The notes under the pieces were generated by a model. That model was given only the letters and a program-made list of their open reading frames with translations, searched no databases and had not been told where the DNA came from. A stretch of 64,000 nucleotides of DNA from Echinicola pacifica DSM 19836 (GTDB taxonomy: Bacteria; Bacteroidota; Bacteroidia; Cytophagales; Cyclobacteriaceae). A program made the position numbers and the translations under genes. Shown piece after piece: positions 60,655 through 63,741 of this stretch. The stretch lies in assembly GCF_000373245.1 (NCBI RefSeq), contig NZ_KB890738.1, forward strand, positions 62,001 through 126,000. The letters are read 5' to 3'. Position 1 is the stretch's first letter; every line of letters starts with the position of its first letter.

Positions 60655-60692
60655 AAAAAAACCCCTCCCAAGAATTGGAAGAGGTTTTTTGA
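60655..60692. terminator. Terminator of the sigma-barrel-FKBP operon
   Basis: AAAAAACCCCTCC and GGAAGAGGTTTTTT form an imperfect stem around CAAGAATT; on the minus strand the stem is followed by TTTTTTATG. Confidence 0.65.
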
Positions 60693-60716: not shown

Positions 60717-61673
60717 TTATTTAATTCCTGTAATTTCAGCATCAAAGAATATTGGTTGGAACGGATTCAGCTGAACATTCAAATATCCTTTTTGGAAATA
60801 ATCATTTCTAATTGACTGCGGTAATACTCGAGCCAAATTGGTATAGGCTGCAGAGGAGGGAGAGATCACTTGAATTTTTGCTTTATTATGAAGGTTATTT
60901 AGTCCTACATCCACAAAGCCTAAGTTATCTTTAACTCCTAATGTAGTGGGAACACTAGCGGAAGACTTCGCAAATGGATCCGTTGCACCTAGCTCGTACA
61001 TTCCATAAGTAAAGCTAACGGTATTTCCGTTTTTAGACTTTTCGGTATCTGTATCTCCTTGATCAATGACCTTTACATATACATCCTTCTCCATTTTGGT
61101 GAATCCCTCAAGATCATTCTCTATCAGGTATTCCTGAATCATATTGTCCTCCATTGCCGCTACTTCATCTTTAGAATATATCTTGGCAAAAGTCACTTTA
61201 ATTTTCAAATGGCTATAAGGAGGAATCAGAGTACCATATCCATAATCCGAAAAACCTACATAAGAAGGAACATAAAGAGTCAAGGTCTCCCCGACCTCTG
61301 CTAAACCTACTGACAAATTCATGGCTATAGGGGCTAGGGTCTGTGCTCCCACATCATACCTAAATAGCACCGGATCCCCATCTTCCATGGTATGCTCACC
61401 GATGAATGCTCCCTCGAGGGTTTCCATTTCATAATAGATCCCTACGATGTCCTCATCTTTGATTTTCACACCATCTTCTACATCCACATCCCGGGTATAA
61501 TAATAGCCTGAGATGGTTTTTTCGGCTTCAATTCCCTTTTCAGAGATATAAACCTCTAAGGCCTTATCATCTCGTGTTACTTGCTTTTCATATTCCGTGG
61601 GCTCATCATTTAGACAAGAAGTCATCATCACACCCAAAGTCACCGCAGAGACTGCTACTAAAATTCTGTTCAT
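60717..61673 (-). CDS. FKBP-like lipoprotein, double-domain
   Basis: 318 aa lipoprotein (signal ending MMTSC, Cys20). The first half (about 60-170) matches FKBP-type peptidyl-prolyl isomerases at the fold level: AMNLSVGLAEVGETLTLYVP and YGYGTLIPPYSHLKIKVTFA. The second half (about 185-318) seems to repeat it in degenerate form. The active-site aromatic residues are not well kept, so it could be a chaperone without isomerase activity. It is the third gene of the sigma-factor operon, 20 bp after the barrel gene, suggesting control by the ECF sigma factor. Such lipoproteins are related to GldI. Confidence 0.72.
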   Translation of the reverse strand: MNRILVAVSAVTLGVMMTSCLNDEPTEYEKQVTRDDKALEVYISEKGIEAEKTISGYYYTRDVDVEDGVKIKDEDIVGIYYEMETLEGAFIGEHTMEDGDPVLFRYDVGAQTLAPIAMNLSVGLAEVGETLTLYVPSYVGFSDYGYGTLIPPYSHLKIKVTFAKIYSKDEVAAMEDNMIQEYLIENDLEGFTKMEKDVYVKVIDQGDTDTEKSKNGNTVSFTYGMYELGATDPFAKSSASVPTTLGVKDNLGFVDVGLNNLHNKAKIQVISPSSAAYTNLARVLPQSIRNDYFQKGYLNVQLNPFQPIFFDAEITGIK

Positions 61674-61693
61674 GTTGGTAAAGTTTATTTTTG

Positions 61694-63079
61694 CTATTTT
61701 TTAAATTGAAAATTCATCCTCAAGTTGACTCCTCCCACCGAGAATTGCTGGTTGGTGAAAGTCATATTTCCTAGAGGTAATTTATAATACGGCTCTATGG
61801 ATAGGAAGGTGCCATTGGTTAGGCTATATTCATAGCCAAAGGACAGGTTTAGCATCTTTCCTAGGTCCACATTAGATTGTCCATCTTCTGGTTTATATTC
61901 TTCACTATAGGTCTGCACCGATTGGGCACTAATCAAACTACCGGTAGCACTGGTAGAAAATCTAGAGTCCACAGAGAAAGTTTCCGTTCCTGTCTGATTG
62001 AGGTAGATCATACTCGACAGGCCTGTGATCAGAAAGAAATCCGCACGTGATTTATCGACCAACTTATATTTCAAATTGATGGGGATATCCAAGCTAGAAT
62101 ACCGGAAAGTATAATCAGATCCTAAATAGTTATTCGTAAACCCTACACCAAGGCTATTGAAATCTGAACGTACAGTCATCGATTCGGGAAGCTCCGCGGG
62201 ACTGTCACTGTGGATATTCTGCTGCTGTGCATAAGTCACTCCAACATCAAGCTTCAATCGCTTACTAAAGGAAAATTCTGATACGAGTCCTCCATTAAAC
62301 TGCATGCCCGATTCTGAGTTAGCGACGGTCTGGGGACCGCCTATGATCCCTAACCTGAATGGCATATCTTCAGATTTATCGGATTGATTCATTATACTTG
62401 CGGTATTTTTCTCAGCGCCAGTGCCTGTGTCGCCTTTCCATTGATCAAGGTATTCTTTAGCCTGCTGCTCATCCATTACAGCTTGCTCGGATGCCATCAT
62501 GCTGGATTTCAAACTTTGATTAGTGGCTAGGGATTGACGATTTACTTGGCCAGGAGCAGCTTTTGAGCTTGGAGACTCCCCTAGAATAGCAACCTCACCT
62601 AAATAGTCGGCAATCATAGCCTCATCGTAGGAATCCATCCTTGGCAGGGATTCCAATGCATCACTATCTGTTCTTGGCTGAATTGATAGCGTCTCAGGAA
62701 CAGCCATAATTTCAATACTATTGGAAGATTGAATAACTGGTTTGGCCTCTGCCAGTTGCGGCCCTGTATCCTCCTTGGAGGAATCTATTGGGGCCTTCAG
62801 GAGTTCCTCGATATCCTTGCTTTTATTAGCTATGGTCCCCTTAAAGGTCGAGACACCTTGTTCGATTTCTTTTTCGTATGGAAAGAAAACCAAAGCTAAA
62901 ATCACGGCCGCGGCAATTCCAGAAGCCAGATATGGCCATACAGCCCAACGTTTCTTAGTTGGTTTATTAAAATATACCTGGGAAAACTTATCCCACTCTT
63001 GCGGGTCAAAGGGCTCCTCATATTCTGCGAAGGAGTCCCTGATCTTCTCCACCAGCCGTTTATCGAATTGCTCCTTCAT
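61694..63079 (-). CDS. Putative anti-sigma-like protein fused to an outer-membrane beta-barrel
   Basis: 461 aa. Residues 1-45 are charged and cytoplasmic in character (EEPFDPQEWDKFSQVYFNKP, the short motif at the start of Bacteroidota anti-sigma-like proteins). A single membrane helix follows (about 47-67). After a 170-residue low-complexity stretch, residues 240-461 form a PorT-like beta-barrel: FRLGIIGGPQTV, KLDVGVTYAQQQN, SLDIPINLKYKL, ending VNLRMNFQFKK. The gene overlaps the sigma gene by 20 bp. The layout implies a protein that reaches from cytoplasm through periplasm towards the outer membrane. Function is not known to me. Confidence 0.72.
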   Translation of the reverse strand: MKEQFDKRLVEKIRDSFAEYEEPFDPQEWDKFSQVYFNKPTKKRWAVWPYLASGIAAAVILALVFFPYEKEIEQGVSTFKGTIANKSKDIEELLKAPIDSSKEDTGPQLAEAKPVIQSSNSIEIMAVPETLSIQPRTDSDALESLPRMDSYDEAMIADYLGEVAILGESPSSKAAPGQVNRQSLATNQSLKSSMMASEQAVMDEQQAKEYLDQWKGDTGTGAEKNTASIMNQSDKSEDMPFRLGIIGGPQTVANSESGMQFNGGLVSEFSFSKRLKLDVGVTYAQQQNIHSDSPAELPESMTVRSDFNSLGVGFTNNYLGSDYTFRYSSLDIPINLKYKLVDKSRADFFLITGLSSMIYLNQTGTETFSVDSRFSTSATGSLISAQSVQTYSEEYKPEDGQSNVDLGKMLNLSFGYEYSLTNGTFLSIEPYYKLPLGNMTFTNQQFSVGGVNLRMNFQFKK

Positions 63080-63608
63080 CTTTTATTTTATTTAACTCTA
63101 TTATTTTTTCTCTTAGTCTCTGCTTGGCTCTAGCCAAATAAGTACGACAGGTACTTGCCGGAATATCGAGTGTTTCTCCAATTTCTTTATGACTAAATCC
63201 CTCGATCTCATACATATTAAAGATGATTCGCATCACCTCTGGAAGTTCTCTCATGGCTCCCATGATATCATCTCTGGATAGCTCATCGATAATATTGGGA
63301 TCCAAGGTCTCTGCATGAGCCTTTTCTATTTCCATAACCGCATAATGCTTGACATTTTTACGGTAATAATCAATGGAAGTATTGATCAGAATCCTACGAA
63401 ACCAAGCTTTGAAAGAACTGCCCTCATTATATTGATTCATACGGTCAAAAGCTTTCATAAAACTGTCATTAACAATTTCACAGGCTTCCTCGCGGGAATT
63501 GGAGTATCTTAGCGAAATGCTCATAGCATAGCCATAGTAATGCTTATACAGCATTTCAAAGGCTTTGGGGCTACCACTTTTTGCTTCTTTGATAAGATAC
63601 TGGTCCAA
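63060..63608 (-). CDS. ECF-type RNA polymerase sigma factor
   Basis: 182 aa. Region 2: KAFEMLYKHYYGYAMSISLR, DSFMKAFDRMNQYNEGSSFK, WFRRILINTSIDYYRK; region 4: ELPEVMRIIFNMYEIEGFSH with KEIGETLDIPASTCRTYLAR. No FecI-type regulator is adjacent; the following gene overlaps by 20 bp and is likely its regulator. The start is TTG at 63608; no ATG lies nearby in frame. It probably controls its own operon, including the FKBP lipoprotein. Confidence 0.93.
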   Translation of the reverse strand: MDQYLIKEAKSGSPKAFEMLYKHYYGYAMSISLRYSNSREEACEIVNDSFMKAFDRMNQYNEGSSFKAWFRRILINTSIDYYRKNVKHYAVMEIEKAHAETLDPNIIDELSRDDIMGAMRELPEVMRIIFNMYEIEGFSHKEIGETLDIPASTCRTYLARAKQRLREKIIELNKIKDEGAIR

Positions 63609-63697
63609 ATGAATGGGCTTTATTATGTATTGCTTTTCGTCTAGACGGTAAGAGTAAAAAAAACGCTACAAACGATAAAAAAAAATAAAACTAATTG

Positions 63698-63741
63698 CTG
63701 GACTATTTCCTTTCAGTCAGGTCCAAAAGGAAATAGTCCAG
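63698..63741 (-). terminator. Long hairpin, probable terminator of the OsmC-like gene
   Basis: 16-bp perfect stem (63698-63713 / 63726-63741) with 12-nt loop. On the minus strand, 9 nt later, comes TTTTATTTTTTTTTT. The T tract is further than usual, so it might also act on the sigma-factor promoter just beyond. Confidence 0.6.

Follow-up and report, generated by a model that had tools for sequence, protein, structure and literature searches.

Three genes on the minus strand of the Echinicola pacifica DNA analysed here (a stretch of 64,000 nucleotides, the window, to whose minus strand all window coordinates below refer) are likely, taking all lines of evidence together, to form an autoregulated sigma/anti-sigma operon of the Reo/Dma type, with a regulon made up mainly of surface lipoproteins and a sigma factor that would be released when the cell surface is damaged. 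They encode an ECF sigma factor (63060..63608; 182 aa, TTG start; assigned from the ORF and Pfam), a 461-aa Dma/Reo-type putative anti-sigma factor that is predicted to span both membranes (61694..63079; assigned from Pfam, alignment, AlphaFold and Foldseek) and an FKBP lipoprotein (60717..61673; Pfam FKBP_C, AlphaFold and Foldseek). An ORF check of the window places the three ORFs, the 20-bp overlap between the first and second and the 20-bp gap between the second and third exactly where an earlier note on this DNA had put them. A terminator-like hairpin with a 19-bp stem (63698..63741) lies between osmC and the sigma gene with its promoter and marks the upstream boundary, and a hairpin search located a second terminator-like hairpin, with a T run, 3′ of the FKBP gene (60662..60683); since there are hairpins on both sides, the unit between osmC and the L-serine dehydratase gene looks like a single operon. 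We note that the inverted repeat at 63698-63741 is long and near-perfect.

The product of the first gene is a short protein that matches sigma-70 regions 2 and 4 only (Pfam Sigma70_r2, 5e-12; r4_2, 2e-15), and it is thus classed as an ECF factor. It scores 76 bits against the RpoE equivalog model TIGR02939, for which the cut-off is 236, and is also below the cut-offs of the NCBIfam models TIGR02985 and NF058625. Its TTG start (63606-63608) is kept in 45/45 Cyclobacteriaceae loci, which argues for TTG as the true start; possibly it serves to hold sigma levels low. The proposal in the earlier note leaned on the operon being conserved, and it proves to be so: it is present in all 11 Echinicola whole genomes sampled and in further Cyclobacteriaceae genera, its order is kept in every one of the 45 named Cyclobacteriaceae loci retrieved, and the sigma and 461-aa genes overlap by 20 bp in 39 of these and by 17 bp in 3 more. 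Such conservation of order, start and overlap is far beyond chance. The 20-bp overlap and the unbroken pairing of sigma and barrel protein in all 45 loci also weigh against a reading in which the sigma factor runs housekeeping expression of surface lipoproteins and the barrel protein is an anchor or has some other role, and is not an anti-sigma factor; in the portions of the published accounts consulted, Reo, Dma1 and Dma2, which share this architecture, act as repressors of their sigma factors, and their loss de-represses the regulon (PMC9308784, PMC13088901), so that we regard this reading as highly improbable. Two outgroup MAG loci encode the sigma factor and the barrel protein and have no FKBP gene. 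The FKBP gene is likewise absent from distant sigma and barrel pairs (L017, L019-L021, L023), for which no matching promoter was found in the available sequence, this being short upstream of the sigma gene for some of them.

The order of parts that had been read from the 461-aa sequence, a head, a membrane helix, a linker and a barrel, is supported by an AlphaFold model made from a 50-sequence alignment (mean pLDDT 70.8). The head, residues 1-45 (62945..63079), is modelled with helices at 4-19 and 26-36, is highly conserved in the alignment, and is presumed to lie in the cytoplasm and to bind the sigma factor. It runs into a long helix, residues 44-94, of which residues 47-67 (62879..62941), preceded in the sequence by positively charged residues, are predicted to span the membrane; the earlier note was right about the membrane helix itself but too short in giving its extent as 47-67. 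Residues 98-201 (62477..62788) are predicted to be disordered (pLDDT < 50), are poorly conserved in sequence and would form a periplasmic tether, and beyond a short helix at 204-218 the model ends in an eight-strand beta-barrel, residues 241-458 (61706..62359; pLDDT mostly 84-98), of the outer-membrane type. Pfam OMP_b-brl_2 covers residues 251-422 of this part (E-value 8e-9), and in Foldseek the closest PDB matches of the model are OmpA barrels (E-value 1e-9), so that the barrel tail of at least eight strands claimed beforehand is matched by a predicted OmpA-like barrel of eight. Odd-numbered connections between strands are long (7, 23, 30 and 11) and even-numbered ones short (4, 3 and 4), the OmpA pattern, as expected of a barrel that is inserted in the outer membrane with its N-terminus in the periplasm. 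Sequence searches of solved structures with the 461-aa protein, on its own or in profile form, produced no useful match. The barrel strands are better conserved than the tether in the alignment, as might be expected of a receptor that recognises a glycan or another ligand outside the cell and passes the signal on along the tether, the kind of ligand sensing that the authors of the Dma2 study propose in Bacteroides; against this, no polysaccharide-utilisation genes were seen among the Cyclobacteriaceae targets of the promoter motif described below, and we consider such a ligand sensor improbable here.

A split relative is found elsewhere in the E. pacifica genome (C19:31872-32513, locus L247; also L248). 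Here the gene for an ECF sigma factor is followed by that for a 269-aa protein, made up of a head, a membrane helix and a linker without a barrel, and then by genes for an outer-membrane barrel protein in its own right and a repetitive exported protein of 315 aa. This arrangement suggests that head and barrel are modules that can occur apart.

The third gene encodes an FKBP-type PPIase, with an FKBP fold and a Pfam FKBP_C match at residues 70-161 that exceeds the curated cut-off (29.4 against 21.1 bits). Its AlphaFold model (pLDDT 91.6) contains two FKBP folds (domains 27-166 and 168-317), bearing out the two FKBP-like domains that had been claimed, and the best structural matches are to the tandem-FKBP structures FKBP51/52. 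Cys20 is followed by LNDEPTE, an acidic, surface-lipoprotein-like start. The lipoprotein profile matches the N-terminal region of a T9SS-translocon PPIase (PDB 6h3i_B), which, like GldI, BamJ and BamK, is an FKBP-type PPIase of the Bacteroidota, although the E. pacifica lipoprotein differs from GldI, BamJ and BamK in having two FKBP domains and in missing their curated NCBIfam cut-offs (48.1/157.6, 26.9/100 and 30.8/120 bits respectively). Its weak likeness to GldI and to the PPIases BamJ and BamK, which co-purify with the BAM of Bacteroides thetaiotaomicron, could indicate a strict barrel-assembly sensor, for which failure of BAM to insert the barrel would be the trigger and an FKBP-led folding response the result, a functional counterpart of Escherichia coli sigma-E. 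The predicted architecture of the 461-aa protein points the same way, as does the induction of EcfO-Reo by the BamA inhibitor bacteroidetocin A, reported in the portions consulted of two accounts (PMC9308784, PMC13114119). The missed GldI, BamJ and BamK cut-offs count against it, as does the predicted regulon (see below). We also considered, and rejected, the idea that the FKBP gene must accompany the sigma factor, since two-domain relatives unlinked to sigma occur in operon-free genomes; the linkage to sigma is thus a recruitment and not a defining feature. Tandem clusters of FKBP-type lipoproteins, some of them two-domain and all unlinked to sigma, are seen in other Cytophagales (L261, L263 and neighbours).

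A predicted sigma-dependent promoter, TGTAGC-N17-CGTCTA, lies at 63642..63670 and would make the operon autoregulated. The consensus among operon promoters is TGTAGC-N17-CGTCTW; TGTAGC-N17-CGTCT stands just 5′ of sigma in 16/16 aligned operons, and TGTAGC-N17-CGTC is found in 38 of the 45 named loci (24 of them with the full CGTCTW) and is absent from the searched stretch in the other 7. Because the operon has its own predicted ECF-type promoter, release of the sigma factor should raise the FKBP protein, as had been claimed. When spacers of 16-18 nt were allowed, the 11 Echinicola genomes contained 44 motif sites, 40 of them with a 17-nt spacer (p 2e-15). The bare tally was set aside, as 44 sites against 39 for the reversed control is practically no excess, and the case for the motif is therefore carried entirely by the fixed 17-nt spacer and by recurrence before orthologous genes. 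Written as TGTAGCR-N16-CGTCTW, the motif has 19 sites in five operon-bearing genomes of five genera (reversed control, 1) and 4 sites in eight operon-free genomes of the Cyclobacteriaceae (reversed control, 5), and with the last motif base left open seven more operon-bearing genera have 34 sites against 9 for the reversed control. Any single genome has few exact-motif sites, and a one-mismatch scan of the E. pacifica genome gave 14 matches, fewer than the 52 of its control, so that bare matches were not used; the one-mismatch sites of E. pacifica considered below are those with support from orthologues (the glycosyltransferase) or from members of the same family in other genomes (DUF4397).

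Besides the sigma operon, the motif precedes genes for serpin, Kazal-type, LVIVD-propeller and DUF4397 lipoproteins, small outer-membrane proteins and a glycosyltransferase. In Echinicola the sites recur at the sigma operon, before the gene for an LVIVD-propeller lipoprotein (9 genomes) and before that for a group-1 glycosyltransferase, which has the exact motif in 9/11 Echinicola genomes and one mismatch in E. pacifica. The E. pacifica gene (L249, C17:21000-27000) sits among other glycosyltransferase genes, a neighbourhood reminiscent of Phocaeicola vulgatus, whose EcfO regulon includes a glycosyltransferase of the LPS region. Serpin genes were searched for independently of the motif. Among the genomes that encode a serpin, the motif lies at the expected distance 5′ of a serpin gene in 12 of the 13 that bear the operon and in none of the 9 that lack an intact one (Fisher p 2e-5, in a test that ignores phylogenetic relatedness). 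The one exception, G081, bears the operon and has a serpin without the motif, but does carry the motif 5′ of a Kazal gene. Kazal-type lipoprotein genes with the strict motif occur in seven operon-bearing genomes and in none of four operon-free genomes, and several Kazal genes of operon-bearing genomes are without it. The E. pacifica genome gave no serpin, Kazal or LVIVD match, and the function there must therefore extend beyond protease defence. The targets predicted for it are the operon itself and, with one mismatch each in the motif, the genes for the glycosyltransferase and a DUF4397 lipoprotein.

In the genomes scanned there is no bamA, surA, degP or other BAM gene 3′ of the motif, and a sigma-E-like regulon for outer-membrane protein assembly was rejected on these grounds. 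This result, together with predicted outputs that are mainly surface lipoproteins, protease inhibitors included, makes the strict barrel-assembly sensor rather unlikely in our view. We favour over it a general alarm for outer-membrane or surface damage, because the predicted outputs are surface-protective and no assembly factor but the FKBP lipoprotein was found among them. The earlier note had taken the barrel itself as the sensor, whose failure to fold or insert would release sigma and raise the FKBP chaperone; its anatomy and its logic of FKBP induction are supported, but the predicted regulon speaks against control by barrel assembly alone.

For the damage alarm that we favour, the helical head would keep the sigma factor sequestered at the inner membrane, as its resemblance to known proteins of this kind suggests, and the membrane helix and disordered tether are predicted to link it across the periplasm to the OmpA-like barrel in the outer membrane. 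The sigma factor would be released when this chain is broken or freed, whether through damage to the outer membrane or the exposed barrel loops or because the barrel is not inserted, and it would then raise its own operon, the FKBP lipoprotein with it, and a small envelope regulon predicted from TGTAGC-N17-CGTCTW. In the Cyclobacteriaceae the output would be mainly surface-type lipoproteins, above all serpins and Kazal-type inhibitors but also LVIVD and DUF4397 proteins, with small outer-membrane proteins and, in Echinicola, the glycosyltransferase of a glycan gene cluster as further products. Most likely the response shields the cell surface from proteolytic or other attack on the outer membrane. 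A narrower version, which we put forward tentatively and with somewhat less than an even chance of being right, is that the dual-membrane anti-sigma factor of the Cyclobacteriaceae is an alarm for surface proteolysis or attack, such that cleavage of or damage to the barrel would free sigma and lead to the display of serpin, Kazal, propeller and FKBP lipoproteins.

The control of outer-membrane stress in the Bacteroidota is poorly understood, as is sensing by dual-membrane anti-sigma factors. The Cyclobacteriaceae operon is compact and conserved, with a clear promoter code and few predicted outputs, so that the signal, whether barrel assembly, loop cleavage or membrane damage, is testable with a simple reporter. 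It would also connect protease inhibitors of two unrelated types, bacterial serpins and Kazal-type proteins, with a specific predicted regulatory circuit.

Among known systems, sigma-E/RseA of Escherichia coli shares the envelope-stress logic, although the E. pacifica sigma factor is far below the RpoE model cut-off and RseA is not known to have a barrel; E. coli FkpA is an FKBP-type periplasmic chaperone. Reo was reportedly described in 2013, and Dma1 is said to have been described in 2024 in PNAS. CirY/CirZ of P. vulgatus is similar in that a sigma factor and its anti-sigma factor share a transcript with a folding factor of the periplasm, but that factor is a Spy-like chaperone and not an FKBP protein (PMC13114119). 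EcfO-Reo of Bacteroides fragilis and P. vulgatus comes closer, and in the portions of the two accounts consulted (PMC9308784, PMC13114119) it comprises an ECF sigma gene followed by one for a large anti-sigma factor with a C-terminal barrel, predicted to cross the inner membrane, periplasm and outer membrane, is induced in P. vulgatus by the outer-membrane-directed toxins BcpT and bacteroidetocin A, and controls lipoproteins and an LPS-region glycosyltransferase. Reo of P. vulgatus is there said to span from cytoplasm to surface and likely to sense outer-membrane stress (PMC13114119). The order of sigma factor and dual-membrane barrel anti-sigma factor is thus shared, as are lipoproteins and a glycosyltransferase among the outputs, but NigD lipoproteins are prominent there, and those portions do not mention a co-operonic FKBP lipoprotein or serpin or Kazal targets. 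Dma1/Das1 and Dma2/Das2 of B. thetaiotaomicron have the same four-part anatomy, given for Dma2 as an N-terminal sigma-binding domain, a TM helix, a long disordered tether and a C-terminal barrel, and the dma2 operon also has three genes, for an ECF sigma factor, an anti-sigma factor and an output protein (PMC13088901). That output protein is a DUF4943 protein, whereas the third gene in the Cyclobacteriaceae encodes the FKBP lipoprotein, and the outputs differ too, being NigD1 and vesiculation for Dma1 and PUL changes for Dma2. The belief in the earlier note that no such system had been described is therefore mistaken, since Reo (2013, 2022) and Dma1 and Dma2 (2024; PMC13088901) are the same kind of protein, and with the outer-membrane-stress proposal of the Reo authors and the architecture already known its idea was largely anticipated. 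By its anatomy, set beside the published descriptions, the operon belongs with the Reo/Dma kind; its third gene, for the FKBP lipoprotein, and a regulon with protease inhibitors, neither of them mentioned in the portions of the Reo/Dma literature consulted, appear to be new, and the novelty in the Cyclobacteriaceae thus appears to lie in the predicted regulon of surface lipoproteins and not in the architecture of the anti-sigma factor.
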